This document shows positions 21,389 through 49,373 of a stretch of 64,000 nucleotides of DNA, one piece after another (position 1 is the stretch's first letter; every line of letters starts with the position of its first letter). A model generated the notes under the pieces. That model did no database searches. It was not told the DNA's origin and worked only from the letters and a program-made list of their open reading frames with translations. The DNA is from Nitrospira sp. (GTDB lineage: Bacteria; Nitrospirota; Nitrospiria; Nitrospirales; Nitrospiraceae). Location of the stretch: positions 310,001 to 374,000 of the forward strand of contig JACOEL010000002.1 in assembly GCA_024998625.1 (NCBI GenBank), given 5' to 3'. The position numbers and the translations under genes are program-made.

Positions 21389-21407
21389 CCAAGAAGGAAT
21401 AGCGGCG

Positions 21408-28876: not shown

Positions 28877-29044
28877 CGGCTCGATCCTCACAATCGCTTT
28901 CTCGCCTGGGATATCCGGAATCCGATCATTCTCTTTTTGTCCGAGAGACCCTAGGCTGGCCCCTCAGAAACCACAAGATCCCGGCATTACCGGCGGCGGA
29001 TATGTGTACCTCTGCCGCGCCGATTGCCCCTGAGCAACGATGAC

Positions 29045-29566: not shown

Positions 29567-29618
29567 TGGAGGTGAGGGGGAAAAGAGCGAGCTGACACGT
29601 CGGACATAAGAGACTATA

Positions 29619-30998: not shown

Positions 30999-33497
30999 AT
31001 GCGGAATAGTGCCTGCTGCCGACGCGCATCTATGCTCTCATGGAATCGATGGCGTGACGTCTTTTCCACCATGAATCCACGGATCCTGCTCCTGTTCGCC
31101 CTGCTGGCATTCACGTCGGCTGGTGTGGAGCACGCATTCGCGCAGGGCGATGGAACGAATGCCGGCGCGGAGCCCAGGCAGAAAATCCACTATCAGATTT
31201 CTCCGCAGCCCTTGAACAGAGCGTTGCGAGACTTTGCGTTGACCTCCGGCTTGCAAGTCAGTTTTCCAGACGATATGGCACTCGGACATACGTCGCGCGA
31301 GGTGGCCGGGTCCTATACGCCTGAAGAGGCCCTGTCGGAATTGCTGGCTGGAAGCGGACTCTCGTTCCGGTTTACCAGCGTCGATACGGTGACGCTGGCG
31401 CGGGTACAGTCATCGGGCATCTCACAGGCACCGGCAGGAGAAGATCGCCATTCCGCCCCTGCAGCGGGCCACACCAGATCAGCGACATCCTCATCCAGCG
31501 TCAAGCCCGTGGTCGTGCCGGAAATCGTGGTCAAAGATGTTCATGAACAGAACGAGCCGGACCAGGAATTGGTGAAGGACATCGCCGGAACGGTCAATGT
31601 CGTCACACGCGAGGAAATCCGGCGAGCCAGGCCCAAAAATGCGGATGAAATGTTGCGGCGGGTTCCCGGTGTCAACGTGTTGGATGAATATGGTCAGGGA
31701 TTAAGACCGAACATCGGCATACGGGGCATGGATCCCCGGCGCAGCAAGAATATTCTGTTGCTGTTGGACGATATCCCGATCCAACCGGCCCTCTTTGGAG
31801 ATGCCTCGACGTACTACATGGTGCCGATCGAACGCATCGATCATATCGAGGTGATCAAGGGTGGGGCCACGGTTCTCTATTCGCCGAATACCCAGGGTGG
31901 CCTGATTAACTTCATTCAGAAGCGGATTCCCACCACTCCGACCTTCTCTACCACGAATACGTTCGGCAGCTTCAATCTGTTTCAGTCGGACACGCAGTAC
32001 GGCGGCTATTTCGGAAATTTCGGGGCGCAGCTCGGATACGTCCGGCGCCAATCGGACGGATTCAGAGACCGTAGTCAATCGCAGTTGGATGATTTCACTA
32101 TGCGGTTCGAAGCGAACCCTGATGACAGGACCCGCATTACGACCAATATCTCCTGGTATGACGAAACGACGCAGACGCCGGGCAGTATCACGCCCACTCA
32201 ATATCGAAACGATCGCACGCTGGCGGGAAAGCCGCAGGATGAGTTTAAGGGGCAACGGGGAGCGATCGATGTGACGGCAAGCCGGGAGATCGATGCGCAT
32301 AATACGGCCAGGGTGATTGTGTACGGTAATGTGTTCGAGCGGAATTGGTATATCCAGGATCAAGCTGCCAACGGCACGCTGCTCTCAAGCAGCACGAACT
32401 TTTTGCGTAAGTTCAATGTTTTCGGCGTCATGCCGCAACATCAGTTCAACTTTTCGCTCTTTGGTTTGGATCAAAAAATCACGTCCGGGGTTCGTTATCA
32501 CGCGGAACGTCTGACCGACATCACCGGGGTCGGCACAGCTGGGTCGAAGATCAGCCGAACGACCAATAACGCCGATCTGGAGTCGGTAGCCTATGCGGCC
32601 TATACGGAGACCGCCATTCGCTTGACCGAAGCCCTCACCATTTCCCCCGGCATTCGCTGGGAGCAGGTCAATCAAAGCCGCGAGACGATGCATGCCGTTC
32701 CCCCTGCGGGAGGGAATTTCAAGGGCTATAAGACGACGCAAGGGCTGATCTACGGAACGGGAGTGAAGTATCAACTGACTCCGGACAGCATGTTATTCGG
32801 GCATGTGCACACCACGTTCCGGCCGCCCACCTTTGCGAACGCGGTCGATCCGACGAGCGGAACCACGCAAGACCTCTCGGCTGAGCGCGCGTTGAGTTCG
32901 GATATTGGTGTCCGTTCGAATCTCCATCCCGGCGTGAGCGCGGAAGTCGCCCTGTTTCGAACCGAATTCAGCAATCAAATTGTGCAGCAGGGCAGCCAGT
33001 TCGTCAACGCCGGCAAAACACTGATGGAAGGAGTCGAGAGTACCGTCAGTCTCGATTGGGGCGAGATCGTCCGCCCTCTGCAAGGTTTCGTCACCAGGGG
33101 CAGCATCACGCTCTTGCGGCCGAAATCGCTGTTCGGATCGACAGACGGGAAAGACCTTCCCTATGCCCCGCGTATGACATTCTACGGATTAGTGGGGTAT
33201 TACCATCCGACCGGGGCCTCAATCGAGGCCGATGCCCTGTTCGTCGCCCAGCAATTCACCGATGGCGTGAATACGCAAACGGAAAATGCCCTCGGCACCA
33301 CAGGCGCAATCCCGTCCTATACCATTTGGAATCTCAGGCTCAATTATGCGCCGCCCAAGGCCCGATGGGCGGTCTTCGCCGGCGTGCGCAACCTCAGCGA
33401 CGAATCGTTTATCGCGCAACGGACAACCGGCAGCTTCATCGGCATTCAGCCCGGAGAAATCCGGAACTTCTACGGCGGCGTCTCATGGCGATTCTAA
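30999..33497 (+). CDS. TonB-dependent transducer receptor (FecA-like, STN domain)
   Basis: 832 residues. GGAGG lies 5 bases before ATG 30999. The true hydrophobic signal core lies at about 27-48, so ATG 31071 would give a more standard signal peptide but has no ribosome site. The STN signalling domain (about 60-112) talks to FecR. The plug (about 170-290) carries P-G-V-N-V and G-I-R-G-M, and a 22-strand barrel ends in the C-terminal Phe (G-G-V-S-W-R-F). This is the transducer class that imports a siderophore or metal chelate and reports its arrival. The downstream DUF4198 and PepSY genes suggest metal handling. Confidence 0.92.
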   Translation: MRNSACCRRASMLSWNRWRDVFSTMNPRILLLFALLAFTSAGVEHAFAQGDGTNAGAEPRQKIHYQISPQPLNRALRDFALTSGLQVSFPDDMALGHTSREVAGSYTPEEALSELLAGSGLSFRFTSVDTVTLARVQSSGISQAPAGEDRHSAPAAGHTRSATSSSSVKPVVVPEIVVKDVHEQNEPDQELVKDIAGTVNVVTREEIRRARPKNADEMLRRVPGVNVLDEYGQGLRPNIGIRGMDPRRSKNILLLLDDIPIQPALFGDASTYYMVPIERIDHIEVIKGGATVLYSPNTQGGLINFIQKRIPTTPTFSTTNTFGSFNLFQSDTQYGGYFGNFGAQLGYVRRQSDGFRDRSQSQLDDFTMRFEANPDDRTRITTNISWYDETTQTPGSITPTQYRNDRTLAGKPQDEFKGQRGAIDVTASREIDAHNTARVIVYGNVFERNWYIQDQAANGTLLSSSTNFLRKFNVFGVMPQHQFNFSLFGLDQKITSGVRYHAERLTDITGVGTAGSKISRTTNNADLESVAYAAYTETAIRLTEALTISPGIRWEQVNQSRETMHAVPPAGGNFKGYKTTQGLIYGTGVKYQLTPDSMLFGHVHTTFRPPTFANAVDPTSGTTQDLSAERALSSDIGVRSNLHPGVSAEVALFRTEFSNQIVQQGSQFVNAGKTLMEGVESTVSLDWGEIVRPLQGFVTRGSITLLRPKSLFGSTDGKDLPYAPRMTFYGLVGYYHPTGASIEADALFVAQQFTDGVNTQTENALGTTGAIPSYTIWNLRLNYAPPKARWAVFAGVRNLSDESFIAQRTTGSFIGIQPGEIRNFYGGVSWRF

Positions 33498-33548
33498 CCA
33501 GCAATGCGCCGTCCCCTCCGGGGATTCTCTATCAAAGGAGTGTTGACG

Positions 33549-34358
33549 ATGGACAGGAAAAGATGTGCGGTCGGTCTGTGGAGCGTGATGGTGCTGTCGA
33601 TCCTTGCGGGGCCCTCACCGGCCAGTGCCCATTTCGTGTGGGTCGAAGCCGATGCCACGGCGCCGGCTGAAACCGGTCAGCCACTCAGAGTCTATTTCGG
33701 CGAATACAGCGAATTTTTGCGTGAAGAGCGCGGTGCGCGTTTGGACTCCATCGATGGCGTCACGCTTCGTGTACAGGACTCTAAGCAGGGGACAAGCGAA
33801 GTGCCACTGACGAAACAGGTTAATCACTTTGCCGGGGCGCTGCCGTCCTGTCAGCCGGGACGAAACGCGGTGGTGGCGCAGCAGGCGCAGGCCCCGGTTC
33901 AGGACTTGCGAAAACACGACATCGGCCTCGTCAAACCGATGTTCTATGCGCGGACCTATTTTATGTGCCTGGAAGAGGGCCGCATCAACGAGCATGAACG
34001 GGAGCAGGCCTCGCCGATGGCCCTCGACATGATTCCCCTGACCAAGGGGCTGAATCTGGCCACCGGGCGAGTCAGCCATGTGCCGGGCGGTGAAATCGTC
34101 GTCAAGGGCTTCTTCAAGGGGCAGCCCCTTCCGAATGCGACGATCTTGGTCCATGCGCCAATTGGGTGGGACAAGGAGTTAAAAACGGATGGGGAAGGGA
34201 TTGTGGCCTTCACCCCGCTCTGGCCGGGACGGTATGTCCTGGAATTGATTCACGTCGAAAAAACGCCGGGTGAATTTCAGGGGAAGCCCTACGAGGCGCT
34301 TCGGCATCGGAGCACGCTGGCGATTCAGGTGCGGGCTGAGCGCTCAGAGGAGAAGTAG
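33549..34358 (+). CDS. DUF4198-like periplasmic protein with mature N-terminal His
   Basis: 269 residues from ATG 33549 (AAAGGAG upstream). The signal peptide ends A-S-A after residue 27, so the mature protein would begin His28-Phe-Val-Trp. DUF4198 proteins, including the NikK part of nickel transporters, often start with a metal-binding His in this way. The C-terminal half is a beta-sandwich with V-K-G-F-F-K-G-Q-P-L-P-N-A-T-I and G-R-Y-V-L-E-L-I-H. Only two Cys are visible. It lies 51 bp after the TonB receptor and directly before a PepSY protein, so it probably binds the imported metal. Confidence 0.8.
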   Translation: MDRKRCAVGLWSVMVLSILAGPSPASAHFVWVEADATAPAETGQPLRVYFGEYSEFLREERGARLDSIDGVTLRVQDSKQGTSEVPLTKQVNHFAGALPSCQPGRNAVVAQQAQAPVQDLRKHDIGLVKPMFYARTYFMCLEEGRINEHEREQASPMALDMIPLTKGLNLATGRVSHVPGGEIVVKGFFKGQPLPNATILVHAPIGWDKELKTDGEGIVAFTPLWPGRYVLELIHVEKTPGEFQGKPYEALRHRSTLAIQVRAERSEEK

Positions 34359-35162
34359 ATGGGGCGCGGGGGAGCCGAGCGGATCGTCAGGCGGGCGCAT
34401 CGATGGCTCGGCATAGGGGCGCTTGGTTTTCTCCTGCTGTCCGTCGTGACGGGGCTGCTCTGGGCGGATGCGAAGTTTCTCTATTGGGATGAGCACTACA
34501 AGGAAAAGGTGCGACCGCTCACGGGGCCGCCGGTGGATTCCGCGACCCTGCCGCTCGATCGGGCGCTGGTCCTGGCGAAGGAGGCAGTCGGCGGTCTCGC
34601 GTTGGTCGAGCAGGCCACCTTACGCACTGACTTTGGCCGGCTCCTCTATGAGGTGAAACTCCTGGGGGAAGGGGGCTCGACGACTGTGCTGTTGGATGCC
34701 ATGAGCGGCGAGCGGCTGTCGCCGATTACGCCGGACCTTGCGTCGACGGTGGCTGCGCAATATGTGCGAAGCCCGGCGGCAGTGGTGGGCGTGGAGATGG
34801 AACGGTACCAGCCCAGGAAGAAAAAGCGCGCCTACGATGCCGTGCGCGTCCGGTTCGATGATGCTGATGCCACGGAAATCGTGCTGGACCGGCAGACCGG
34901 CGAGATTCTTGAAGATGAGGGCCGCTGGCGAAAAGTGCATTTTGCCGTGATGCAATTACACCAGCTGAATTTTTTCGGTTTCGAGAAAACCCTACTCAAT
35001 ATTCCGGGTGTCCCGATTCTGCTGATGAGTCTGTCCGGCCTGCTCTTGTGGGGATTCCATCGTGCCAGGGCGCGGCGGGCCATGCAGGCGGCTGCCGACG
35101 TCCCGACGGCCACTGTGCCGTCCCGATTGCCGGCGGCGCCGAAGGAAACCACCCGCGCCTGA
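34359..35162 (+). CDS. PepSY-domain membrane protein
   Basis: 267 residues, starting on the base after the previous stop. Helix 1 at about 12-35 begins R-R-A-H-R-W-L-G. Two PepSY-like periplasmic stretches follow (about 65-115 and 145-190, the second ending in L-D-R-Q-T-G-E-I-L). Then comes a helix at about 222-240 preceded by L-H-Q-L-N-F-F-G. PepSY-associated proteins with conserved His near their helices often act as ferric reductases or heme-linked partners in siderophore uptake. The coupling to a FecA-type receptor fits that. Function is inferred. Confidence 0.78.
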   Translation: MGRGGAERIVRRAHRWLGIGALGFLLLSVVTGLLWADAKFLYWDEHYKEKVRPLTGPPVDSATLPLDRALVLAKEAVGGLALVEQATLRTDFGRLLYEVKLLGEGGSTTVLLDAMSGERLSPITPDLASTVAAQYVRSPAAVVGVEMERYQPRKKKRAYDAVRVRFDDADATEIVLDRQTGEILEDEGRWRKVHFAVMQLHQLNFFGFEKTLLNIPGVPILLMSLSGLLLWGFHRARARRAMQAAADVPTATVPSRLPAAPKETTRA

Positions 35163-35237: not shown

Positions 35238-37271
35238 GTGACGATTCGCACTATCAAAGGCCGTATTGTGCTCGCCATCGTGCTGGTGGGCTGTATCCCG
35301 CTGGTGATCGGCCTGGTGCTGGCGTCGATGTCCGGTATGCGTTCCCTCCGCGATGTGATCGGCGGGAATTTCCAGGCGATTGCCGAACAGGCGGCCGATC
35401 GTTTGACCATGCTGGTCCAGGGCGAAGTGCAGGGGGTGCGGTTACTCGCCTCTGCGCCTTTACGGGTTCGCCAGCCGGTCGAGGCCGCCAACCTGTCGTA
35501 CAAAGGCGAGTGGGCCGATACGCAGCGCCTGATTCAGGAACGCGCGAAGGAGTGGGAAAAAGGGCATGGCAGCGCCGCCGGCCTGCTGAATTTAGAATTG
35601 TCCCGCTTTCTGCTGGAGATCAAAGTCCGCGACGGCGACAAGATGGTGGGGCTGCTGATCACCGACCGCTATGGGGCGCTGGTCGCAGCCAGTTCGGAAC
35701 CGGACCATTATTCCCTCAGCCAGGAACCCTGGTGGGAGGCCTTGCAGGCCGGGGGCCTGGACCGGGTCTACGTCAGCGGGTTGATTCCCGGACAGGAAGG
35801 CTCCTTCCGTTCGCCTGAAGAAACCATCGATATCGCCGTCCCCATTCTGGACGACCACCAGCATGCAGTCATCGGCGCCATCAAGGCGTCCTACCGGTTC
35901 GATTCCCTCTTCGCGATGATCAAAGAGATCCGCATCGGGCAGACCGGCCATGCCATGTTGTTCGATGCCGCGGGTCAGCCGCTCGTGTGTCCTATCCTTC
36001 CCCGGCGTGCGCATCGGATTCCCAGTCAGTTGATGGCCATGATCGTCTCGTCGAATCCCGGCTGGGGTATTGCCGAGGACGACGGCCATGGTGCCACCGA
36101 TACGGTGGTGGGGTATGCGCCCGTCACGGGGCTGAGCCTGCCGGATAACTCCTGGCACGTCTTCGTACGGCAACAACCGGAGGAAACCTATGCGCCGATT
36201 CGCGACCAACTGCGGAATCTCGCGGTGATCGGGGTAGTCATGCTGTGCCTGCTCTGGGCCATCGGACGGTATGTGGCGGCACGGATTGCCCGCCCGATCC
36301 AGGTGTTGAAATCGGGGGTGGAGGCCATCAGCCAGGGTACGTACGATGGTCCGCTCGACATCAAGACGGGGGATGAGTTTGAGGAACTCGCCGTCGCTGT
36401 GCATCGGATGGCGGACCGCTTGCAATCTTCGCGTACCGAACTGGAATCGTTGAACGCGGAGCTGGTGCATCGAGTGGAGGAGAAGACCGCGGAGATTACC
36501 CGTCAAATGCGGAAACTGGAGTTGTCCGAACGTCTAGCCACGCTCGGCAAAGTCGCCAGCGGCATCGCCCATGAGATTAATAATCCGCTCGGGATCATTT
36601 TGAACCGGATTGAATGCATGGAGGCCGATGCGGCGCAGACGGGCGTGCCGGAGGAAGTCGGGCGGGATTTGGTGACGATCCGCACGCAGGCGGAACGGAT
36701 TTCACGGGTCACCCGCAGTATTCTCACGTTCTCCCGCGGCACCGTCTCGATGCTGAAGCCCCTGGATCTCAACTGCATTGCGAGGACCTGTGTCGCCATG
36801 GCGGGTGAACGGGTCGCGGCGCTGGCAGTCCGGATTGACGCGCAATTGGCGCCCGAGGTATCACCCGTGATGGGCGACCGCGATCGCCTGGAAACGGTCC
36901 TGCTCAATCTGATCAACAATGCCATCGATGCAGTCACCGGCTCCGACACTCAAGGGATCATCACAGTAAGCACCTCGCGGATGCCGATCGACGGAGAGGA
37001 GTGGGTGCGGATCAGCGTGTCCGATAACGGGCCCGGTGTGCCGGCCGAGATCCTCGATCGCATCTTCGATCCGTTCTTTACTACCAAACCGGCCGGTCAA
37101 GGGACCGGGCTGGGCCTGTTTCTGAGTTATGGAATTGTCTCGGACCATCGTGGTCGCATTGAAGTGCGGAACAACGCCGTCGGCGCCGTCTTCGATGTGT
37201 ATCTGCCTGCGGTGGCATTCGGGAACCGGGTTCATGAGGGAACATCATGGGGATTGCAGGAAAAATCCTGA
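35238..37271 (+). CDS. Membrane sensor histidine kinase (dCACHE-HAMP)
   Basis: 677 residues, GTG start with AGGAGGT upstream. Helix 1 at about 10-32, a double-CACHE-type periplasmic sensor at about 40-310, helix 2 at about 325-345, and HAMP at about 345-400. Next come a coiled coil, the His-kinase dimerisation domain with H445 in G-I-A-H-E-I-N-N-P-L, and an ATPase domain with N-x-x-x-N-A, D-N-G-P-G and G-T-G-L-G-L. It senses an external ligand and phosphorylates the regulator, whose gene overlaps its 3' end by 25 bp. Confidence 0.93.
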   Translation: MTIRTIKGRIVLAIVLVGCIPLVIGLVLASMSGMRSLRDVIGGNFQAIAEQAADRLTMLVQGEVQGVRLLASAPLRVRQPVEAANLSYKGEWADTQRLIQERAKEWEKGHGSAAGLLNLELSRFLLEIKVRDGDKMVGLLITDRYGALVAASSEPDHYSLSQEPWWEALQAGGLDRVYVSGLIPGQEGSFRSPEETIDIAVPILDDHQHAVIGAIKASYRFDSLFAMIKEIRIGQTGHAMLFDAAGQPLVCPILPRRAHRIPSQLMAMIVSSNPGWGIAEDDGHGATDTVVGYAPVTGLSLPDNSWHVFVRQQPEETYAPIRDQLRNLAVIGVVMLCLLWAIGRYVAARIARPIQVLKSGVEAISQGTYDGPLDIKTGDEFEELAVAVHRMADRLQSSRTELESLNAELVHRVEEKTAEITRQMRKLELSERLATLGKVASGIAHEINNPLGIILNRIECMEADAAQTGVPEEVGRDLVTIRTQAERISRVTRSILTFSRGTVSMLKPLDLNCIARTCVAMAGERVAALAVRIDAQLAPEVSPVMGDRDRLETVLLNLINNAIDAVTGSDTQGIITVSTSRMPIDGEEWVRISVSDNGPGVPAEILDRIFDPFFTTKPAGQGTGLGLFLSYGIVSDHRGRIEVRNNAVGAVFDVYLPAVAFGNRVHEGTSWGLQEKS

Positions 37272-38668
37272 TTGTCGATGACGAACAGGATGCGCTGGAG
37301 AATTGCCGCCGGATTTTGAGTCGTGTGCCGTATGACTGTCTCACCGAGTGTGATCCCGCCCGTGCGCTGGATGTCATTCAGCGAGAGCGCCCCGGTCTGA
37401 TCCTCACGGATTTGCGCATGCCCGATCTCGACGGGATTGAAGTCCTGGCGGCAGCCAAACGGTTCGATCCTTCCGTGCAGGTGGTGCTGTTGACGGCCCA
37501 CGCGACCGTGCAGACTGCGGTCACGTCGATGCGGTCTGGCGCCTTCGATTACATTACCAAGCCGTTTACAAGTGCAGACCTCTTGTCGGTTGCCCGTCGC
37601 GCGTTTGGGGAGGATGGGGCGGGGCCTGTCGCCGGTGCCGTCGATACACGCGAGCCCCTCGAACCTCCTGAGCGGGCGCGTCCCGGGAAGCCGGTCGGCC
37701 TGTCACGAGTCATCGGCGAGAGCCCCGCCATGCAGTCGGTGTTCAATCTGATTGAAAAGGTCGCGCCGACCCATTCCAACGTACTGGTCTACGGCGAAAG
37801 TGGAACAGGCAAAGAGCTCGTGGCGCGCGCCATTCACGACGCCAGTCTGCGGGCGGACCGGCCCTTCATTCCGGTGGATTGCGTGTCTCTGCCCGATACC
37901 CTGCTGGAATCCGAACTGTTCGGCCATGAGAAGGGGGCGTTTACCGGCGCCCATGTCTCGAAGCTCGGCCTCTTCGAAGTGGCGGCGGGTGGAACGGTCT
38001 TCCTCGACGAAGTCAGCGGGATGAGCCAGACCCTGCAGTCCCGTCTGTTGCGGGTGTTGCAGGAACGGCAGATGCGACGGGTGGGCGGCATTCGGTTTCT
38101 GGAGGTGGATGTGCGGGTGATTGCGGCTTCCAATCAGGATCTTGAATCGGCCTGTCGCCGGGGTGAGTTCCGCGAGGATCTGTATTACCGGCTGAACGTC
38201 ATCCCCATTGTGTTGCCGCCCTTGCGGACTCGCGAGGGGGACATCCTCATCCTGGCGCGGGAGTTTCTGCGGAGGTTCATGAACCAACAGCGACTGGGCC
38301 AGGCGTTCGTGCCGGAGTTGGATGCCTCGGCGAGGGATCTGTTGTGCGGGTATTCCTGGCCGGGGAATGTACGGGAACTGCAAAACGTCATCGAGCGGGC
38401 CGCGGTGCTGGCCGATGGGCCGGTCATTACGAGTGCGCACTTGCCCGACCGTTTGCGGGAGTGTGGGGGTGAGGAATCAGCCTCCGCCGAAGCCGGTTCC
38501 TTCAAGCATGCCAAGCAGGCGGCCGTGACGACCTTTGAGCGCAGCTTTTTGATCGATCTCCTCAAGCGTCACGACGGCCACATGGGGCGAGCGGCGCGGG
38601 AATCCGGCGTCGATCGAAAGACGATCGAACGGATGGTGAAGAAGCACGGCCTGCGCGAACTGTTCTAG
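37247..38668 (+). CDS. NtrC-family sigma54-dependent response regulator
   Basis: 473 residues. Receiver about 1-120 with phospho-acceptor D55 (L-T-D-L-R-M-P). AAA+ domain about 155-390, with Walker A GESGTGKE at 183-190 and the sigma54-contact GAFTGA at 230-235 intact. A Fis-type helix-turn-helix forms the last 45 residues (M-G-R-A-A-R-E-S-G-V-D-R-K-T-I). It overlaps its kinase gene. Two near-identical 20-bp palindromes and a well-formed sigma54 promoter lie just downstream, ahead of the multicopper oxidase gene, which is the obvious target. Confidence 0.93.
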   Translation: MGIAGKILIVDDEQDALENCRRILSRVPYDCLTECDPARALDVIQRERPGLILTDLRMPDLDGIEVLAAAKRFDPSVQVVLLTAHATVQTAVTSMRSGAFDYITKPFTSADLLSVARRAFGEDGAGPVAGAVDTREPLEPPERARPGKPVGLSRVIGESPAMQSVFNLIEKVAPTHSNVLVYGESGTGKELVARAIHDASLRADRPFIPVDCVSLPDTLLESELFGHEKGAFTGAHVSKLGLFEVAAGGTVFLDEVSGMSQTLQSRLLRVLQERQMRRVGGIRFLEVDVRVIAASNQDLESACRRGEFREDLYYRLNVIPIVLPPLRTREGDILILAREFLRRFMNQQRLGQAFVPELDASARDLLCGYSWPGNVRELQNVIERAAVLADGPVITSAHLPDRLRECGGEESASAEAGSFKHAKQAAVTTFERSFLIDLLKRHDGHMGRAARESGVDRKTIERMVKKHGLRELF

Positions 38669-38835: not shown

Positions 38836-38855
38836 ATGGGGCATCGGTGTCCCAT
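38836..38855. promoter_or_regulatory. Upstream activator palindrome 1 (ATGGGGC-N6-GTCCCAT)
   Basis: Inverted repeat, extended to 8-bp perfect arms at 38833-38840 and 38851-38858. It has the same layout as palindrome 2. Its centre lies about 175 bp before the -24 element, a usual enhancer distance for an NtrC-type activator. Confidence 0.65.
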
Positions 38856-38926: not shown

Positions 38927-38946
38927 ATGGGGCGTCTGCGCCCCAT
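38927..38946. promoter_or_regulatory. Upstream activator palindrome 2 (ATGGGGC-N6-GCCCCAT)
   Basis: Perfect 8-bp arms (ATGGGGCG/CGCCCCAT) around TCTG. Its centre is 91 bp from palindrome 1 and about 84 bp before the -24 element. Two matching sites fit two dimers of the adjacent response regulator. Confidence 0.68.
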
Positions 38947-39018
38947 TCGTCAACGCGGCCGCCCCCTCCGTGGTGTGAAATTCCAAATGAAAGTGCGTTT
39001 TTCTTACGTTGATCTTGT

Positions 39019-39034
39019 TGGAACGGGAGTTGCT
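39019..39034 (+). promoter_or_regulatory. Sigma54 (-24/-12) promoter of the multicopper oxidase
   Basis: TGGAACGGGAGTTGCT matches the sigma54 consensus at the -24 element (TGG-AC) and -12 element (TTGCT), with exactly ten bases between GG (39020-39021) and GC (39032-39033). Transcription would start near 39045, about 180 bp before the gene. Confidence 0.75.
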
Positions 39035-39224
39035 CTATGGGTGCCCGTCTTTATACGCGCAGTGGGGGACGCGCCATCGTGACAATGATCGCGAGCAAGG
39101 AAGTGGAAGACGATGGACCGGCCTCCTGAGTTTTCCACTCCATGAGGTGCAGGTCCCCGTGGACCTGCACCGCTCGCGGCAGTCTCGTGGTGCGGTGTTT
39201 ATGGTTTCAAGAGGAGGTAGGTCA

Positions 39225-42200
39225 ATGAGATCGGTACGAAGCGGGCCTAAGAAGTACAGTCAGCGAAGGTCCCGGGCGGCCTGGAAGTATGTGCTGGGGG
39301 CGATGCTCCCGACGGTCTGCATCGGGGCGTTCCACGTCGCGTCGGCGGAGCCGACCGACCTGCATGCCGCGGCGCACAACCAGCCGGCCTGGGCGGAGCA
39401 GCTCAAGGGGCAGACCATTGTCGAGGATGCCAAGGAGGGGCATGTCGAGCGGACGGCCATGATGGAGCGGCAACACCAGCGCATCATGGAGAAGATCAAC
39501 GAGCAGATGGTGCATGATGCCGCGGTGCAGCGGACCGGCGGGCAGTACAACAACGTCAACATGATGCATCAGTACGGCGCGGGTAATCAGGACATCCTCC
39601 TGATGTCCAATCCCTCCGCCGAGCCCGTGTCGATGGGAGGCGGGCGTTGCCCGGCTAGTGCGCCGGTGCGCGCGTACGACGTCTCTGCGATCAACGTCGA
39701 GATCACGCTGAATATGTGGCTCGATTTTTATCCCGGCTATATGTACGTGCTGACGGAAAATATCGACAAGGTTCGCGCGGAAGAAACGAAGAACAAAGAA
39801 GCGCGTGACGTGGAAGGGTACAACCCGGGCGGGGTGACGAACGGGTTGCAGAATCAATGGATTCAGCCGTTGGTCCTCCGCGGGAACCAGGGCGATTGCG
39901 TGAAGCTCACGCTCCGCAACCAACTGGAAGGCACTGAAGAAGTGAGCCTCAACATTCACGGCTCCAGCATGGTTATGACGGCCACGGGCCAGCCGGCCAG
40001 CACCACCAATCCGGACAGCATTGCCGGGCCGGGAAAAGCCGTGGAGATGGAGTGGTACATTCCGCCCACGCAGCAGGAAGGCAGTCGCCAATTCCATTCC
40101 TACAGCAACGACCGTGAATTGACCGTGATGGGCCTCTTCGGCTCGTTCGTGATCGAACCCAAAGGCTCGGAGTATCTGGAGCCGCTGGGAACCGGTGATC
40201 CTCAGCCCGCCAAGAGCGGCTGGCAGGCGATCATCAAGAACGGAGCCGGTCCGGACTTTCGTGAGTTCGTGCTGTTCTATCATGAGGTCGGCGATGAAGC
40301 GTTCCGTCCTTTGAACAAAAAGGGCGACTTCATTCCGCAGCGGGATCCGTTGACCGACGTCTATCGCCCGGTGGCCCGCGCGTTGAACTACCGCAGCGAG
40401 CCGTTCGGCGTGGACAACATGCAGACCCAGCATGAATATTTCGGCTTCGAAGATGAGTCGATGGCCTACAGCGCCTACACATTCGGCGATCCGGCCACGA
40501 CCATTCCACGCAGCTATCTCGGTGACCCGGCCAAGTTCCGGCTGGTGCACGGTGGATCGGAAGTGTTCCACTCCCACCATCCGCACGGGGGGTCGATCCG
40601 GTGGCCGCGCAGCCCGCGGGCGATCGATGAAATGCCGCTCTGGCATACGGCGAAAAACGGCCCGGTGAAATATCCGGTGATCCGGACGAAGTCTGATCGT
40701 GTGGACGTGGAAGTGATCGGTCCGTCTGAGACCATGGACCTCGAAACGGAGTGCGGGTCCGGGCTCTGTCAGCAGCTGGCCGGAGACTTTCTGTTCCATT
40801 GCCACGTGGCCCATCACTACATCGCCGGGATGTGGGGCTACTGGCGCGTGTACAACACCATTCAGCAGGGCGCGAACCACAACGATGTGATGCCGGATCT
40901 GTTGGAGTTGCCGGACCGGAAGGGCCGGATCAAGGTGGGGATCACCTCCGACGAGTTGATCGGCAAGACGGTCGATTGGTTCGGGAAGCAGTTCACGATC
41001 ATCGAGAAGGGCAAGACCGATTGGAAGGCGAGCCCGGCGCTGGTGACCTTGAAAGACTGGGTCGAGATGCAGTTCCCGCCGCAGGGCCTGCCTGGTCACA
41101 AAAAAGATGAGCGCGAGCAGACCCGGTCCTACGACGCCAGCGTGCTGAACTGGGGCTGGCAGGGCAATCGCGCCATGACCGAGCCGGAAAACACGGTACC
41201 GAATCCGCGCTATCAGTCGGCCCATCCGGGTGAGCGTCTGCCGATCGTGTTCGAGCCGTTGACCGGCAAGGTATCGTGGCCGCACTTGAAGCCGCATTTC
41301 GGTCGACGGGTGCCGTTCTCCAAAGGCCACAATCCTTCTCCGTGGCTGGAGATGATCCACTTGGAAGAGGACGGGTTGCCGAGTTCCTATCCGGCCAAGC
41401 CTGGAGAGAACGGGCGATGGAGCCTCTGTCCGGAAAATGCCGGATCGAAGAAATACAACGTGCATTTCATCCGCACGCCCATGATGTTGGCCGATAAGCA
41501 GGGCAACACGCCGGCGATTATGGATGAAGGCGGGATGATTTATGTCCTGCATGAGGAAGAAGCCGCCATTCGGAAGAACAACGACCTGAAGTTTCCGTTG
41601 GTCGTGCGGTCGAACATCTATGATTGCGTCGATTGGATGTTGACCAGCGAATGGGACGACGATGACTACTCGAATTTTCATGCGTCGAAGGTCAATACTC
41701 ATTGGCATTTCCTGCAGTTCGACAATCAGTCGTCGGACGGCGTGATCACCGGCTTCTCAAACGAACAGTCGGTGCGCCCGTTCACGATGCTGGAGAAGAA
41801 GACCGACAAGGGGTTGCCGTTGCCCTTGAACACCACCTTCACGAAGGCGGCGAAAAAGGGCGATCGAGTCATTACCGTCAAGAATGCCGCGCAGTATCAT
41901 CCGGAGATCGAAATCCTGATCGGTGCGGACAATGTCGGTGGAAACGAAGTCGGCCGGATCAAGTCGATCAAGGGAAACGAGATTACCCTGGTTCGTCCCT
42001 TGAAGAACGATCATCCGGTGAAGGATATTGTCACGGTCGAGTTTGTTCGGCAGCGGTTCTGGGTCGATTCCGATGTGGGCACCGTGTTCTGGCACGACCA
42101 TGCGTTGGGCCGGATTACCTGGGGCCATGGCGGGTTCGGTACGATGATCGTCGAGCCGGTCGGTTCGACGTATCACAATCCCAAGACCGGGGCGCCGATT

Positions 42201-44108
42201 CGAAGCGGTCCGCTGGCGGACATCCGCACGGCGGAGCCGGTCGGCTATGGGGTGAACGGAAGCTTCCGTGAACTCCTGGTCCAGTTAAACGACAGCGTGC
42301 CGCACACGATCAATATCGTGACGGCCGGTAATCCTCCGGGGCAGCCGGTCGAGGTGGCGTTGGAAGCGGGTAAGACGATTTCCTTCCCGATTCCGGACCA
42401 TATCAAGATGACGCCGATGCCGTTCCTGAACGGCGGAACTCATACGACGGGCGGCAGCCTCAACTTCCGGGCGGAGCCGATCTCCGGCCGTATGGCGGCC
42501 AATCCGGATATGTCGAAACTCTTCAGCAGCGCGGTGCACGGCGATCCGTACACGCCGATGGTACGGGCGTACCTGGGCGATACGGTCGTCTTCCGGTTGT
42601 TGCAGACCATGACCAACGAAAGCATGGTCTGGACGCTGTCCGGACATACCTATCTGACTGAGCGGTATGCCGGTGACGCGAACCGGAAGAACTCGATTCA
42701 TGTCGGCATTGCGGAGCGATACGACTTGGTGGTGCCGCAAGCGGGCGGACCAAGACTGCAGGCGGGCGACTACATCCACTTCAACGGACGTTCGTCCAAG
42801 TTCTCGGAAGGTGCCTGGGGCATCTTGCGGGTCCTCGATAAGGATGTGTCGGATCTGCAGAAATTGCCGGCCGGGTACAGTGGCCGGAATGAAATTCCCA
42901 AGGCGCCGGCCGTGTGTCCTGCCGAGGCGCCGGTGAAGACCTTCAACGTCGTGGCGATCGATTTCCCGTCCATGAAGTTGAATCCGAAAGCGCCGGATGC
43001 CATCGAGGTCGATTTCGAGCGGACAATTCAGATGGTCAATCCAGAAGCCAAGATCTTCATCTTGGAAGAGGATGTGTCGGCCGTGGCGTCCGGTGCGCAA
43101 CCGATGCCGTTGACGTTGCGGGCGAACGTCGGTGACTGTCTGAAGGTCAAGCTGACCAACAAGATGAAGCAGGGTCGGGCGTCCTTCTCGGCGCTGGGCC
43201 TGGCCTTCGATCCGAAGGATTCGCTGGGTGCAAACGTCGGCAACAATCCGGGCGAGCAAACGGTCGCTCCGGGTGAGAGCCGCGTCTACACCTACTACGC
43301 CGATCCGTTCATCGGGGAGACTGCGTCCCTGGTGTGGGATTGGGGCAATGTGATGACCAATCCGCGCAACGGGTTGTACGGCGGTATCGTGATCGGCCCG
43401 AAGGGTGCCACGTATCGCGATCCGAAGACCGGTGCGGATATCTCCCTGAAGAACAGCTGGGTCGCCGATGTCATTGTGGATCGGACGATTCAGGGCTACG
43501 AGAATCGCCAGAACTATCGCGATGTGGCCCTGTTCTTCCAGGATGAAGACAACATCATCGGGACGAGCTTCATGCCCTACGTGCAGAACACGGCGGGTCT
43601 GACGGCCGTCAACTATCGCTCGGAACCGTATAAGTTCCGGGAGTCCAACGGTTGTACGTTGGGCAAGGTCTTCCAGCCTTGCTCGGTAGATAAGCCGGAG
43701 AGCATTGCCACGCCGCTCATCGAAGCGCATGCGGGAGATCCCGTGCGCATCCATGTGTTCGGTGCGAGCAATGAGCAGAACGGCATGTTCAGTGTCGAGA
43801 AGCATGAGTGGCCGATCGAGCCATTCATGCGCGGCGCCGACCAGATCAGCGTCGTCGAGTTCTCCGCTTCGGAGAGCCTCGATGCCTTCATCCCGGCGGC
43901 CGGCGGAAGCTTCCGCCTCCCGGGTGATTACGTCTGGAGCAATCAGCGGTTGCCCTATGCCCAATCTGGGCAGTGGGGATTGATGAAGGTGTTGCCGCAT
44001 GACGATCAACGGATCCTCCCGTTGAGTCAGCAGGCGCCTTCGATCAAGCGGGCGGAAGTCGAGTCTGGAACACCCACTGTCTCCAGAATGTCGAATCCGC
44101 TCCGATAG
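39225..44108 (+). CDS. Giant periplasmic multicopper oxidase, MnxG-like
   Basis: 1627 residues from ATG 39225 (GAGGAGGT 6 bases upstream); the frame runs open to 39009 but that overlaps the promoter. Signal peptide about 1-45. Copper motifs, seen directly: H449-x-x-H452-x-H454; H525-C526-H527 with H531 and M536 (complete type 1 site); H826-W-H828; H957-D-H959. Their order is the reverse of laccase, where the two H-x-H motifs come first. As I recall, the Mn(II) oxidase MnxG is similarly permuted. The last third repeats the plan of the first, opening again with C-P-A-x-A-P and G-D-C, but lacks copper ligands. Likely substrates are Mn(II), Fe(II) or Cu(I); this is inference. It is monocistronic. 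Confidence 0.88.
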   Translation: MRSVRSGPKKYSQRRSRAAWKYVLGAMLPTVCIGAFHVASAEPTDLHAAAHNQPAWAEQLKGQTIVEDAKEGHVERTAMMERQHQRIMEKINEQMVHDAAVQRTGGQYNNVNMMHQYGAGNQDILLMSNPSAEPVSMGGGRCPASAPVRAYDVSAINVEITLNMWLDFYPGYMYVLTENIDKVRAEETKNKEARDVEGYNPGGVTNGLQNQWIQPLVLRGNQGDCVKLTLRNQLEGTEEVSLNIHGSSMVMTATGQPASTTNPDSIAGPGKAVEMEWYIPPTQQEGSRQFHSYSNDRELTVMGLFGSFVIEPKGSEYLEPLGTGDPQPAKSGWQAIIKNGAGPDFREFVLFYHEVGDEAFRPLNKKGDFIPQRDPLTDVYRPVARALNYRSEPFGVDNMQTQHEYFGFEDESMAYSAYTFGDPATTIPRSYLGDPAKFRLVHGGSEVFHSHHPHGGSIRWPRSPRAIDEMPLWHTAKNGPVKYPVIRTKSDRVDVEVIGPSETMDLETECGSGLCQQLAGDFLFHCHVAHHYIAGMWGYWRVYNTIQQGANHNDVMPDLLELPDRKGRIKVGITSDELIGKTVDWFGKQFTIIEKGKTDWKASPALVTLKDWVEMQFPPQGLPGHKKDEREQTRSYDASVLNWGWQGNRAMTEPENTVPNPRYQSAHPGERLPIVFEPLTGKVSWPHLKPHFGRRVPFSKGHNPSPWLEMIHLEEDGLPSSYPAKPGENGRWSLCPENAGSKKYNVHFIRTPMMLADKQGNTPAIMDEGGMIYVLHEEEAAIRKNNDLKFPLVVRSNIYDCVDWMLTSEWDDDDYSNFHASKVNTHWHFLQFDNQSSDGVITGFSNEQSVRPFTMLEKKTDKGLPLPLNTTFTKAAKKGDRVITVKNAAQYHPEIEILIGADNVGGNEVGRIKSIKGNEITLVRPLKNDHPVKDIVTVEFVRQRFWVDSDVGTVFWHDHALGRITWGHGGFGTMIVEPVGSTYHNPKTGAPIRSGPLADIRTAEPVGYGVNGSFRELLVQLNDSVPHTINIVTAGNPPGQPVEVALEAGKTISFPIPDHIKMTPMPFLNGGTHTTGGSLNFRAEPISGRMAANPDMSKLFSSAVHGDPYTPMVRAYLGDTVVFRLLQTMTNESMVWTLSGHTYLTERYAGDANRKNSIHVGIAERYDLVVPQAGGPRLQAGDYIHFNGRSSKFSEGAWGILRVLDKDVSDLQKLPAGYSGRNEIPKAPAVCPAEAPVKTFNVVAIDFPSMKLNPKAPDAIEVDFERTIQMVNPEAKIFILEEDVSAVASGAQPMPLTLRANVGDCLKVKLTNKMKQGRASFSALGLAFDPKDSLGANVGNNPGEQTVAPGESRVYTYYADPFIGETASLVWDWGNVMTNPRNGLYGGIVIGPKGATYRDPKTGADISLKNSWVADVIVDRTIQGYENRQNYRDVALFFQDEDNIIGTSFMPYVQNTAGLTAVNYRSEPYKFRESNGCTLGKVFQPCSVDKPESIATPLIEAHAGDPVRIHVFGASNEQNGMFSVEKHEWPIEPFMRGADQISVVEFSASESLDAFIPAAGGSFRLPGDYVWSNQRLPYAQSGQWGLMKVLPHDDQRILPLSQQAPSIKRAEVESGTPTVSRMSNPLR

Positions 44109-44177
44109 AGGTGAGGGGGCGGCGCAGCCCTGTATAAGTGCCGCCACATGGATGCAGTGCCGGTCCTAATCACCAAG

Positions 44178-44305: not shown

Positions 44306-45067
44306 TCACTGCTTACGCTTGTGAGCGACCAATTCCTGGAGTGTCTTCAGATCCAAGGCACCCGGTACGAGATCGTTGCCGACGATGAAGGCCGGTGTGC
44401 CGGTGATGCCGAGGGTCTTGGCGAGGGCACGGTTGCGATCGATGATCGGTTGCCAGTCCGGTCGTGTGATGTCCTGATCAAGTCGATTCACGTCTAGCCC
44501 GGCCTCCTCTGCGATGCGGAAGAGATGCTCTTTGGTGAGATCGTCTTTCGCCGCCAACAGGCCTTCATGAAATGCCCGGTGTTTGCCCTGCAGGTTCGCG
44601 GCGAGTGCCGCCTTGGTCGCCAATTCTGATGTCTCTCCAAGAATCGGAAAGTCTTTGTACACAACACGCACTCGGGCGTCGCTCTGTTGCAGTTGGGTCA
44701 GGGCCGAGGCAGCTTTTTTACAATACCCGCAGCGATAGTCGAAGAACTCTACGACGGTCACATCCCCGGCTGGATTTCCGCTTGCCGGGGAGCCCGGATC
44801 GTTGAGCAGTTCTGGCTGATGTGTCGCGAGGGCGGCCTTCTGCCGTTCTTGCTCCTCCGCCACCCGTTTGTTTTCCAGCGACTGCAATGATTGCTCGATG
44901 ACTTCAGGATGGGTTCGAATGTACTGCTCTATCATCTGCTCAAGGGCTTGCCTGGTGACCGGCTCGCCGGTCGGTTCGGCTGCCCGGACCTCGAGAGACG
45001 GGTGGAGCGCGTACCCGGTGACTGCGAAGACGAGGGAAAGGAGAAGGCGGTCGCTGCCCGGTTTCAT
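44306..45067 (-). CDS. DsbA-family exported thiol oxidoreductase
   Basis: 253 residues from the ATG at 45067 (GGAGG upstream); the frame runs open to 45133. Signal peptide about 1-28. An N-terminal helical part (about 35-85, I-E-Q-Y-I-R-T-H-P-E-V-I-E-Q-S-L) precedes a DsbA-type thioredoxin domain with F-F-D-Y-R-C-G-Y-C near 115-123. The inserted helical region follows, and the cis-Pro motif G-T-P-A-F-I-V-G is near 220. This layout is that of ScsC/BcfH-like and Com1-like proteins, which shuffle disulfides in the periplasm. It is convergent with the Cys-containing copper oxidase. Confidence 0.9.
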   Translation of the reverse strand: MKPGSDRLLLSLVFAVTGYALHPSLEVRAAEPTGEPVTRQALEQMIEQYIRTHPEVIEQSLQSLENKRVAEEQERQKAALATHQPELLNDPGSPASGNPAGDVTVVEFFDYRCGYCKKAASALTQLQQSDARVRVVYKDFPILGETSELATKAALAANLQGKHRAFHEGLLAAKDDLTKEHLFRIAEEAGLDVNRLDQDITRPDWQPIIDRNRALAKTLGITGTPAFIVGNDLVPGALDLKTLQELVAHKRKQ

Positions 45068-45216
45068 TCGGCCTCCGTTTCGGATGAGGGTGAAGGTGTG
45101 TCGCTCGATGCGAGAACGCGCGGCATTATACAAGAATCCTCCATAAGAGAAACCGGAGGAACGCGTTGTCTGATTCTCGGGCGTCGCAGGGCGGGAGTCG
45201 CAGTGGTCGGATCCGG

Positions 45217-45510
45217 TCAGTTGGCCGGATCGATCGGCAGTTTAGTGATCTTGATCAGCCGGTTCTCTTCATCCAGTTCAAAGCTCACATGGTCGCCGAT
45301 GCTGAGGCCCTGCAGGAGACGACGGTTGATGACCGGGAGGGCTTGTGATTCCCCGGATGGCATTCGGATGGTGAGGGTCAGGGCGTCCTGATCGATCGAG
45401 AGAATCGTGCCGCCCAGTAGGGCGGCCTCCGTCGGCGGAGCGGCGGTGAAACCGGAAATGGCCGGAGAACTGAGGAGCAGCAGGACTATGGTCAGGATGT
45501 GCAGACCCAT
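45217..45510 (-). CDS. Small exported protein with an OB-like beta domain
   Basis: 97 residues. Signal peptide about 1-22. The mature part reads as one small beta barrel: G-G-T-I-L-S-I-D-Q-D-A-L-T-L-T-I, then G-L-S-I-G-D-H-V-S-F-E-L-D. This resembles exported copper-binding CusF-like or general OB-type folds, but the CusF metal ligands are not evident. The AGGGG site touches the ATG, so the start is uncertain. Confidence 0.6.
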   Translation of the reverse strand: MGLHILTIVLLLLSSPAISGFTAAPPTEAALLGGTILSIDQDALTLTIRMPSGESQALPVINRRLLQGLSIGDHVSFELDEENRLIKITKLPIDPAN

Positions 45511-45718
45511 CCCCTATGATAGCCGATGCCAATGCCTGTGCGGAACTAGCACTCTTCCCTGGAGTGCATGGACAGAAGACCTAGCCCTCTTCGACGGACT
45601 GCAAATTCACCTGCGTCGGCCTTACGGGCGAGAAATCCCGGCGGGGGATACTGAGGATTTTACGGTTGCGCTGAACTCATGCTCGCTCTATCTTGAAGCG
45701 GAGAGGAAAAGGTCAAGA

Positions 45719-46924
45719 ATGTCAGAAGCCGGAGCAGCTGCAGTCCTCACCCTCAACGCCGGATCCTCCAGTGTGAAGTGGGCCTTGTTTCGTATTGGGG
45801 CAGTGCCGGTTCGGACGGCAGCGGGACAGATCGAGCGGATCGGGCTTCCGGATGGCATCGTCACCGTCACCGATGTTGCGACCGGACAGCGTGAGCGGCG
45901 GACTGTTCCCGTGACGAGCCATGCTGCTTCCCTCCGGTTGCTCATCGACCAACTCGCGCAGAGCGGGAAGGGATTGTCCGTTCAGGCGATCGGTCATCGA
46001 GTCGTGCACGGAGGCAGCCGTTACGCAGACCCCCAGGTGATCTCCACTGAGGTGATGGATGAGTTGCGGCGGCTGAGCCCCTACGATCCGGAACATCTTC
46101 CCGCCGAATTGACGTTCATCGAAGCATTCGGCATCGAATATCCGCAGGTGCCGCAGGTGGCCTGCTTTGATACCGGGTTCCATCAACATCTACCGCCGGT
46201 GGCGCGTCTCCTGGCGCTCCCTCGCCGGTATGAAAAACTGGGCATCCGGCGATATGGGTTTCATGGCCTCTCGTATGCGTTTCTGATGGAGGAATTGGAA
46301 CGGGTGGCCGGTCGTGACGCCGCGTGCGGCAAGGTGATTCTCGCCCATCTGGGAAATGGGGCCAGCCTGGCTGCGGTGCGGGACGGCGTCAGTATCGATA
46401 CGAGCATGGGTTTTACTCCGGCTTCCGGTTTACCGATGAGCACCAGGTCCGGCGATCTGGACCCTGGCCTGGTTTCCTACCTGGTTAGGACCGAAGGCAT
46501 GACGGCGGAGCAGTTTCACCACATGGTGAATGCGCAATCCGGTTTGCTGGGGCTGTCGGAGATCAGTCCGGACCTTCGCGACCTGTTGGCGCAGGAGGGC
46601 CGCGATGCCCGCGCCGCTGAGGCAGTGGCCCTGTTCTGCTACCAGGGGAAAAAGTGGATCGGAGCCTATGCGGCGGCGCTGGGTGGCGTGGAGCAGCTCG
46701 TGTTCAGCGGAGGCATCGGCGAACATTCTCCCATCGTGCGGGCCCGTATGTGTGAAGGCCTGGATTTTCTCGGCCTCCATCTGGATCCGAACCTGAACGA
46801 GGCCAATGCCGCCGTGATTTCCAGCCCCGCGAGTCGGGTGACCGTGCGGGTGATCCGTACCGACGAAGAAAGTCAGATTGCACAATCGGTCTGCCGGTTG
46901 CTGGCATTGACTGCGGGCCGTTGA
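45719..46924 (+). CDS. ackA: Acetate kinase
   Basis: 401 residues from ATG 45719 (GAGAGGAAAAGG upstream); the open frame extends to 45407 without support. All family signatures are present: V-L-T-L-N-A-G-S-S-S-V-K near 9-20, G-H-R-V-V-H-G-G, F-D-T-G-F-H, G-F-H-G-L-S-Y, G-N-G-A-S and F-S-G-G-I-G-E-H. It converts acetyl phosphate and ADP to acetate and ATP. The phosphoketolase that makes acetyl phosphate is encoded 73 bp downstream, so the pair forms a short substrate-level ATP pathway. Confidence 0.95.
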   Translation: MSEAGAAAVLTLNAGSSSVKWALFRIGAVPVRTAAGQIERIGLPDGIVTVTDVATGQRERRTVPVTSHAASLRLLIDQLAQSGKGLSVQAIGHRVVHGGSRYADPQVISTEVMDELRRLSPYDPEHLPAELTFIEAFGIEYPQVPQVACFDTGFHQHLPPVARLLALPRRYEKLGIRRYGFHGLSYAFLMEELERVAGRDAACGKVILAHLGNGASLAAVRDGVSIDTSMGFTPASGLPMSTRSGDLDPGLVSYLVRTEGMTAEQFHHMVNAQSGLLGLSEISPDLRDLLAQEGRDARAAEAVALFCYQGKKWIGAYAAALGGVEQLVFSGGIGEHSPIVRARMCEGLDFLGLHLDPNLNEANAAVISSPASRVTVRVIRTDEESQIAQSVCRLLALTAGR

Positions 46925-46997
46925 CAATGCAGGACGGCCGGCCACGCCGGTCGTGGGCGATTGGTGACGGACAGTCCAAATCCGAGAAAGGGAACCC

Positions 46998-49373
46998 ATG
47001 AATCAGACGACCCAGGCGAATCGGCCGCTGAGCCAGGAGACAGTGCAACGGATTGATGCCTACTGGCGAGCGGCAAACTATCTTTCCGTCGGACAGATTT
47101 ATTTGTTCGACAATCCGCTGCTGAAGCAGCCGTTGAAACGGGAGCATATCAAGCCGCGCCTGCTCGGCCATTGGGGGACGACGCCGGGGTTGAATTTTAT
47201 CTATGCCCATCTCAACCGCATCATCAAAGCCCAGGATCTTCCCGTGCTGTATATCGCGGGTCCCGGACACGGCGGTCCCGGCCTGGTTGCGAACGTGTAC
47301 CTCGAAGGCACGTACAGCGAGGTCTATCCGAACATCTCGCAGGACGAAGCAGGCTTACAGCGCCTGTTCAAACAGTTTTCTTTTCCCGGAGGTATTCCGA
47401 GCCATGTCGCGCCGGAAACGCCCGGCTCTATCCACGAGGGCGGTGAGTTGGGCTATTCCCTGGCCCACGCCTATGGAGCGGCCTTCGACCATCCTGAGTT
47501 GCTGGTGGCTTGTGTGATCGGAGACGGCGAAGCCGAAACCGGTCCCCTTGCGGGGAGTTGGCATGGGAACAAGTTCTTGAATCCCGTGCGGGACGGGGCG
47601 GTGCTGCCGATTCTGCATTTGAACGGGTACAAAATCGCCGGCCCGACGGTGCTGGCACGTATGCCGCCGGACGAGCTCGAATCCCTGTTGGTCGGGTATG
47701 GTCATCAGCCGTTTTTCGTCGAAGGTGATGATCCGGCGACGATGCATCAGCTGATGGCGTCCACGCTGGACGAAATCGTCGCGACGATCCGGCGCATTCA
47801 ACAGGAGGCCCGGTCCAAGGGATTTACCGGCCGGCCGCGCTGGCCCATGATCGTCTTGCGAACCCCAAAGGGCTGGACCGGGCCGAAGGAAGTGGATGGC
47901 AAACCGACGGAGGGCACGTTCCGTTCCCATCAGGTGCCGATGGGCGAGATGGACAAGCCCGGCCATGTCGAGTTGCTGGAAGCCTGGCTGAAGAGTTACC
48001 GGCCGGAGGAGTTGTTCGATGAAGCGGGAAGGTTGATGCCGGAGCTGGCCGAACTGGCGCCGACCGGGGAGCGACGCATGGGGGCCATTGCCTGCGCGAA
48101 CGGGGGCGGCCTTCTCCGCGACCTTCAGATGCCGGACTTCCGACAGTACGCGGTGCCGGTGGTGAAACCCGGCGTCGAGGATGCCGAGGCGACGCGGGTG
48201 CAGGGATTGTTCCTGCGCGATGTCCTGAAGATGAATCCCCACAACTTTCGGCTGTTCGGGCCGGATGAGACGGCATCCAACCGTTGGGGCGGAGTGTTTG
48301 AAGTAACCGATCGCTGCTCGACCGAGCAGATCCTCCCCACCGACGAACATGTGGCGCATGACGGGCGTGTCATGGAGATCCTGAGCGAACACCTGTGCCA
48401 AGGGTGGCTCGAAGGATACCTGCTGACGGGACGGCATGGGTTCCTGAATTGTTATGAAGCGTTCATTCACATCGTCGATTCCATGTTCAATCAGCACGCG
48501 AAGTGGCTCAAGACCTCGCGCGAGATTCCCTGGCGGCGGCCGATCGCCTCGCTCAATTATCTGCTGACGTCGCATGTGTGGCGTCAGGACCACAATGGTT
48601 TCAGCCATCAGGATCCCGGCTTCATCGACCATGTGGTGAATAAGAATGCGCAGGTGATCCGTGTCTATCTGCCGCCTGATGCGAACACGCTCCTGTCGGT
48701 CACGGACCACTGTTTGCACAGTCGTGACTACGTGAACGTGGTGGTGGCGGGAAAACAGCCGGCTCCGCAATGGCTGGATATGGACGCCGCCGTGCTGCAC
48801 TGCACCGCCGGGATCGGGATTTGGGAATGGGCGAGCAACGACCGCGGTAGCGAGCCCGACGTCGTGATGGCCTGTTGCGGCGATGTGCCGACGATGGAGA
48901 CGCTGGCGGCGGTGGAGATCTTACGCATCGCCCAGCCCGACTTAAAGGTGCGCGTGGTCAATGTGGTCGATCTCATGAAGTTGCAGCCTGCGAGCGAACA
49001 TCCGCACGGGATGTCCGACAAGGAATTCGATGCGTTGTTCACGACCGACAAACCGATCATTTTCGCCTTCCACGGGTATCCGTGGCTGATCCACCGGCTC
49101 ACCTACCGCCGGACCAACCATGACAACCTGCATGTACGTGGCTACAAGGAGGAAGGCACGACCACCACGCCGTTCGACATGGTGGTGTTGAACGATCTGG
49201 ACCGGTTCCACCTGGTATCCGATGTGGTGGACCGCGTGCCGCAGCTCGGGGCGCGTGCCGCCTATCTCAAACAGGAGATGCGCGACAAACGCATGTTGCA
49301 CAAGCAGTACATCGAGACCTATGGAACCGATATGCCGGAGATCAGAAACTGGAAGTGGAGCGGGAAGCGCTAG
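46998..49373 (+). CDS. xfp: Phosphoketolase (xylulose-5-P/fructose-6-P)
   Basis: 791 residues, GAGAAAGG upstream, normal length for the family. A thiamine-diphosphate enzyme: G-P-G-H-G-G-P-G near 87-94, [14 protein letters not shown] near 147-160, [10 protein letters not shown] near 176-185 with the cofactor-binding motif ending at N-G-Y-K-I, and H-Q-D-P-G-F near 540. It splits xylulose-5-phosphate or fructose-6-phosphate into acetyl phosphate and a shorter sugar phosphate. Paired with ackA it gives acetate plus ATP; reversed with acetyl-CoA chemistry it could bypass glycolysis. The substrate preference cannot be set by reading. Confidence 0.95.

Follow-up and report, generated by a model that had tools for sequence, protein, structure and literature searches.

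Nitrospira are the most widespread nitrite oxidizers, yet how they transport electrons is poorly understood; to our knowledge, canonical heme-copper oxidases are missing from most of them. Multicopper oxidases (MCOs) of the laccase, CueO and CopA/PcoA kinds have their two H-x-H copper motifs first. MofA of Leptothrix and OmpB of Geobacter are large MCOs that have been linked to Mn or Fe (PMC5566968). In 2013, a putative periplasmic MCO of Nitrospina gracilis and Ca. N. defluvii was noted as MnxG-like and a role in Mn(III)/ROS defense was proposed; the MCO was also placed with NXR-cluster genes in Nitrospina and Nitrospira (PMC3578206). Ca. Manganitrophaceae encode two novel MCOs per genome (PMC9040806). 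Since 2013, the giant MnxG-like enzyme of Nitrospiria, with several copies per genome and its own copper carrier, has been almost ignored.

We analyzed a stretch of 64 kb (the window) from the 4.42 Mb genome of a Nitrospira close to Ca. N. defluvii (G000). On the forward strand the window encodes an exported MnxG-type MCO of 1627 residues (39225-44108), recognized by its open reading frame, homology and motifs. The initial annotation had proposed this frame and the locations of its copper motifs, and both were borne out. The ATG at 39225 fits as the start codon, being preceded by the Shine-Dalgarno sequence AGGAGG at 39212-39217 (+ strand). An in-frame TTG at 39009, which would give a protein of 1699 residues, is a very unlikely start because the conserved sigma-54 site (39019-39034; see below) comes only after it. 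The N-terminus is basic and continues into a hydrophobic stretch at approximately residues 19-40, with no membrane span after that, a pattern expected of a soluble protein that is exported. On the opposite strand, the two long ORFs at 39222-41708 and 42285-44147 were dismissed as mirror ORFs without other support. Note that in one relative an MCO copy is interrupted by six in-frame TGA codons (G020:C12:138443-143308), probably a decaying paralog or a misassembly.

Alignment placed twelve copper ligands (ten His, one Cys and the axial ligand) in four motifs on the + strand. The L3 motif, H449-x-x-H452-x-H454 (40569-40586), reads H449-S-H-H452-P-H454 and would supply T1 and T2/T3 ligands. It is followed by L4, H525-C526-H527-x3-H531-x4-M536 (40797-40832; T1 Cys, His and Met, and T3 His), by L1, H826-W-H828 (41700-41708; T2/T3 ligands), and by L2, H957-D-H959 (42093-42101; T3 ligands). 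Each ligand is kept in 88-89 of the 89 full-length relatives aligned, the exceptions being one row with P in place of H449 and another in which the HCH motif residues are unread. Judged from this alignment, ligand conservation is far beyond chance, and the ligands are invariant across the three paralog clades described below and in other Nitrospiria families. The ligand set thus places the protein in the multicopper oxidase superfamily, with the motif order L3-L4-L1-L2 and not the classical laccase/CopA order, in which L1 and L2 precede L3 and L4. An AlphaFold model of residues 135-1250, built with 29 relatives, had a mean pLDDT of 45, too low to be of use; an active site with one T1 and one trinuclear center is predicted from alignment to MnxG, and the sites are presumed to be occupied by copper.

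The sole strong PDB match of the window MCO was MnxG (9bxa, E 8.8e-83). The NCBIfam MnxG profile NF041487 was matched with E 5.6e-37 and 126 bits, compared to an equivalog cut-off of 3100 bits. With this score, and an identity of ~28-31% in blocks, we rejected an assignment as MnxG proper. Membership in the MnxG-type superfamily is indicated by the permuted motif order and by homology that flanks the active site on either side. The order L3-L4-L1-L2 is common to a Priestia megaterium plasmid MCO (1700 bits to 9bxa), other plasmid homologs and long Nitrospira MnxG-like proteins, so that the permutation represents the MnxG-type order rather than a novelty. The motif alignment also agrees with the statement in the initial annotation that MnxG is itself permuted. 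The metal oxidase proposed there gains from the homology, the permuted order and the complete ligands, but the distance from the MnxG cut-off counts against it, and the sequence does not prove Mn(II), Fe(II) or Cu(I) to be the substrate. In the 9bxa chain, HCHLYPAFGIGM, residue 340 is Ala, at the place expected for the T1 His, which all other compared proteins have; the chain looks like a T1-site mutant.

Some other Nitrospira encode separate MnxG-like MCOs of 1940-2417 residues (L126 3216-10280, L127 3138-9887, L128 and L129), which reach up to 1706 bits to the MnxG profile and are much nearer to it than the window MCO. They form a separate clade, which is absent from this genome.

The genome contains three MCO paralogs, the window copy on contig C17 and copies on C16 (74% identity) and C34 (64%), and a tree resolved three supported clades (A, B and C) across Nitrospira. 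The best named relative of the window MCO is an N. defluvii copy (L071) that is 98% identical; the second N. defluvii copy (L051) is 73% identical. In a sample of the phylum, the MCO was present in 65 of 65 genomes of the class Nitrospiria, nearly all at ≥50% identity, while outside the class 5 of 133 genomes had distant, partial matches. A search with the MnxG profile found matches in 145 of 147 Nitrospiria genomes, none above the cut-off. Outside Nitrospirota, the nearest named homolog found was encoded on a Streptomyces plasmid (33%, full-length). The MCO family is class-wide in Nitrospiria and nearly absent outside, a distribution that is new here. A class-wide core gene in nitrite oxidizers would be odd for a niche enzyme of metal defense, and could equally be respiratory. 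Linkage to NXR was rejected for this genome, in which the NXR-size molybdoenzymes lie on contig C28, apart from every MCO.

Most lineages have genes for an amicyanin-like cupredoxin behind the MCO gene, an arrangement that is also new here. One or two such genes, of ~300-350 codons, lie directly after the MCO in clade B, clade C and several clade A loci, the latter outside the N. defluvii group (e.g. L008, L010, L011, L012, L056 and L060), and the synteny recurs in Nitrospiria families f5, f7, f11, f12 and f14. Pfam recognized a C-terminal carboxypeptidase-regulatory-like domain in the partner and nothing else. Its middle part carries one His and a C-x2-H-x2-M motif, kept in 99-100 of 103 sequences and invariant in all 40 aligned rows of alignment A2. 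The predicted model (pLDDT 79.8) folds as a cupredoxin. Foldseek matched it with a probability of 1.00 to the NirK cupredoxin, amicyanin and plastocyanin, and VIA gave Z scores up to 11.2, with an rmsd of 1.9-2.5 over 84-89 residues. With a Greek-key beta barrel and the H...C-x2-H-x2-M pattern, the partner belongs to the cupredoxins, and this modeled fold and its ligands make it very probably a type 1 copper electron carrier. The genome has four partner genes, three at the C16 locus and one at the C34 locus. No cupredoxin gene was found near the window MCO, and the window-type MCO of the N. defluvii group likewise has no partner gene; the window copy has lost its partner. Since no cupredoxin gene lies beside it, any partner that it uses has to be supplied from somewhere else.

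The extra electron source suggested in the initial annotation is conjectural; electron exchange between the MCO and the respiratory chain, in either direction, is plausible because the cupredoxin partner is conserved in most relatives. At the C16 locus, genes for a cytochrome bd-like oxidase subunit and cytochromes are clustered with the MCO paralog, and a rhizobial relative of the partner adjoins SCO and cbb3-oxidase genes. Both observations, together with the occurrence in every sampled Nitrospiria genome and the published placement with NXR-cluster genes (PMC3578206), would suit a MCO-cupredoxin pair that acts as a periplasmic auxiliary O2 sink in nitrite-driven electron transport, the MCO being fed by the cupredoxin, without a metal substrate. 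We regard this role as possible but rather doubtful, given that the window copy is partner-less and under predicted inducible sigma-54 control, that MnxG, its closest characterized relative, oxidizes metal, and that O2 reduction in the periplasm conserves little energy.

The family f12 of Nitrospiria has two divergent tandem MCOs, 51% and 56% homologs of the window MCO. At these loci (L116 1338-13008, L117, L118 and L119) a protein of 390 residues and unknown nature is encoded between the two, and cupredoxin genes come after the second. The two novel MCOs of Ca. Manganitrophaceae (PMC9040806) are probably this tandem pair itself, f12 being, we infer, that family. Such a gene set would fit Mn(II)/Fe(II) lithotrophy, in which the cupredoxin, rather than O2, takes the metal's electrons from the T1 copper and they enter the respiratory chain; indeed, for Mn lithotrophy via MCOs the electrons would have to pass to a carrier in the periplasm (PMC9040806). 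For the window copy, which has no cupredoxin partner, we consider this most improbable: its complete trinuclear site favors O2 as acceptor, the same report favors Cyc2 and PCC_1, and the link of f12 to Manganitrophaceae is our own. It is a long shot that the MCO-cupredoxin pair forms an unrecognized class-wide module between metal and the respiratory chain, common to nitrite oxidizers, comammox and the manganese-lithotrophic Manganitrophaceae, and that, in the class ancestor, it served metal lithotrophy first, with nitrite oxidation coming later.

What sets the window copy apart is a private control that is new here and is predicted to comprise a kinase and regulator, two dyads, a sigma-54 promoter and a leader RNA. 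In the N. defluvii group, the MCO sits, without a partner gene, behind a dCache-HAMP sensor histidine kinase (35238-37271, + strand), kept beside the window-type MCO in this group, and an NtrC-type sigma-54 response regulator (37247-38668, + strand). Downstream of these are two dyads of the form ATGGGGC-N6-GYCCCAT, site 1 (ATGGGGC-N6-GTCCCAT, 38836-38855), a predicted UAS, and site 2 (ATGGGGC-N6-GCCCCAT, 38927-38946), with a spacing of 91 bp in most relatives. They are the only exact matches in the whole 4.4-Mb genome and probably constitute the binding site (UAS) of the regulator.

The predicted sigma-54 promoter, TGGAACG-N4-TTGCT (-24/-12), is located at 39019-39034 on the + strand. Compared to the consensus TGGCACG-N4-TTGCT, with GG at -24 and GC at -12, it has 11 of 12 letters and is the only such match in the 64 kb, where a match with a single mismatch is not rare (0.59 expected); the weight of the candidate site is therefore on its position and conservation. 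It is kept in 15 loci though the flanking sequence has drifted, and at 9 of 12 letters in five more. The site is absent from clade B copies, whereas clade C and the first f12 tandem copy have 9-10 of 12 letters. The MCO paralogs thus seem to be split into constitutive and inducible copies.

Between the predicted promoter and the start codon lies a leader RNA of two hairpins (39097-39179, + strand) with the near-invariant loop GGACCGGCCUCCUG, recognized by covariation. Across its alignment 97.4% of cells were paired and 8 pairs had changed on both sides. Shuffled controls gave 3.0 ± 1.2 changed pairs and slid structures were 40-54% paired; a chance origin was rejected on these figures. The leader is single-copy in this genome, and an Rfam search assigned it to no family, its sole match being IMES-5 with E 0.48. 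Note that in some relatives (G001, G007 and G014) it is duplicated in tandem. The loop contains CCUCCU (39122-39127, + strand), complementary to the AGGAGG of the MCO and a candidate anti-Shine-Dalgarno sequence. In a different family (L136), a leader loop GGCCUCC faces a GGAGGCC Shine-Dalgarno region. From this complementarity, the leader loop may sequester the ribosome site of the MCO.

The 14-base core of the leader, GGACCGGCCTCCKG, recurs in antisense orientation ahead of the C34 MCO paralog, at a distance of ~2.1 kb (G000:C34:75507-75520, - strand), and G022 and G023 have it at the corresponding place. We rejected the core as a widespread element: except upstream of MCOs, the other examined matches (L137, L138 and L139) fall within coding regions.

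Several other neighbors of the window MCO were noted. A convergent gene for a DsbA/ScsC-like thiol-disulfide protein (44306-45133, - strand) is kept in most genomes of the N. defluvii group and its product might possibly help the MCO to fold. Directly upstream of the kinase and regulator, a cluster at 29024-35162 encodes a FecI-like sigma factor, FecR, an STN-domain TonB receptor, DUF4198 and PepSY proteins; in related genomes, its DUF4198-PepSY part remains beside the MCO, which hints at a link to metal uptake. An MdtABC-like RND efflux operon at 21324-28854 encodes a membrane fusion protein and tandem AcrB-type pumps of 1037 and 1033 residues. On the other side, an acetate kinase gene adjoins that for phosphoketolase (XFP) at 45407-49373, a pair that is conserved beside the MCO in relatives and could represent a phosphoketolase bypass in an autotroph.

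We propose, with a probability of roughly 0.45, that the window MCO belongs to a Nitrospiria-specific clade of the MnxG superfamily, works with four coppers in the periplasm (or at the surface) as an oxidase of a reduced transition metal, and is induced for protection against metal or oxidative stress. The complete ligand set argues for O2 reduction at the trinuclear site fed by type 1 copper. In the predicted cycle, the type 1 copper (H449, C526, H531 and M536) would accept single electrons from a donor, which would cross the H525-C526-H527 bridge to the trinuclear cluster (H452, H454, H525, H527, H826, H828, H957 and H959), which would reduce O2 to water. The amicyanin-like cupredoxin that most relatives co-encode would dock with the MCO and ferry electrons to or from the respiratory chain, an exchange favored by the existence of the partner and by the respiratory neighbors of the C16 copy. 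The window copy would be an inducible, partner-less paralog: the adjacent dCache kinase would sense a signal and activate the NtrC-type regulator, which would bind both dyads and fire the sigma-54 promoter, and pairing of the leader hairpin with the Shine-Dalgarno sequence would add translational control. The electron route, substrate, inducer and translational control are thus all put forward conditionally.

MnxG kinship and the large size favor a metal substrate, and for this inducible, partner-less copy a metal oxidase protecting against metal or oxidative stress is the most likely role. Its likeliest job would be the periplasmic oxidation of Mn(II), Fe(II) or Cu(I), serving protection and not as the main energy source. 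A narrower version, already published (Luecker et al. 2013; PMC3578206) and in line with the MnxG homology, holds that the MCO oxidizes Mn(II) to Mn(III), which removes superoxide in an organism that has neither SOD nor catalase. This seems unlikely to us, as it is Mn-specific without evidence of a Mn site and leaves the cupredoxin partner unexplained. If electrons pass between the MCO-cupredoxin pair and the respiratory chain, or if the pair oxidizes Mn or Fe, nitrification would be linked to metal cycling. The window copy offers a good handle: with one dedicated sensor, two unique sites, a single promoter and a single RNA leader, the signal that induces it can be tested directly.

How does this locus compare with known systems? 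Laccase, CueO and CopA/PcoA have the same four copper motifs as the window MCO, but their matches here are short and weak. MofA and OmpB resemble it in being large MCOs, a likeness drawn from their description (PMC5566968). The putative MCO of Nitrospina gracilis and Ca. N. defluvii very likely belongs to the same family; its report (PMC3578206) covers one periplasmic MCO and ROS defense, and describes neither the paralog clades nor the class-wide pairing with a cupredoxin gene nor how the window copy is privately regulated. Closest is MnxG of Bacillus (9bxa), likewise a giant, multi-cupredoxin protein with the same motif order and aligned ligands, from which the window MCO differs by insertions and an N-terminal extension. 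In the MnxG-like Priestia operon, two small genes lie just upstream of the MCO, at the mnxE/F positions. These are absent at the window locus, where no MnxE/F-like gene adjoins the MCO, and a search of the genome with one Priestia protein from the MnxF position, run without a positive control, gave no match. In place of these small genes, most relatives of the window MCO have a cupredoxin partner.
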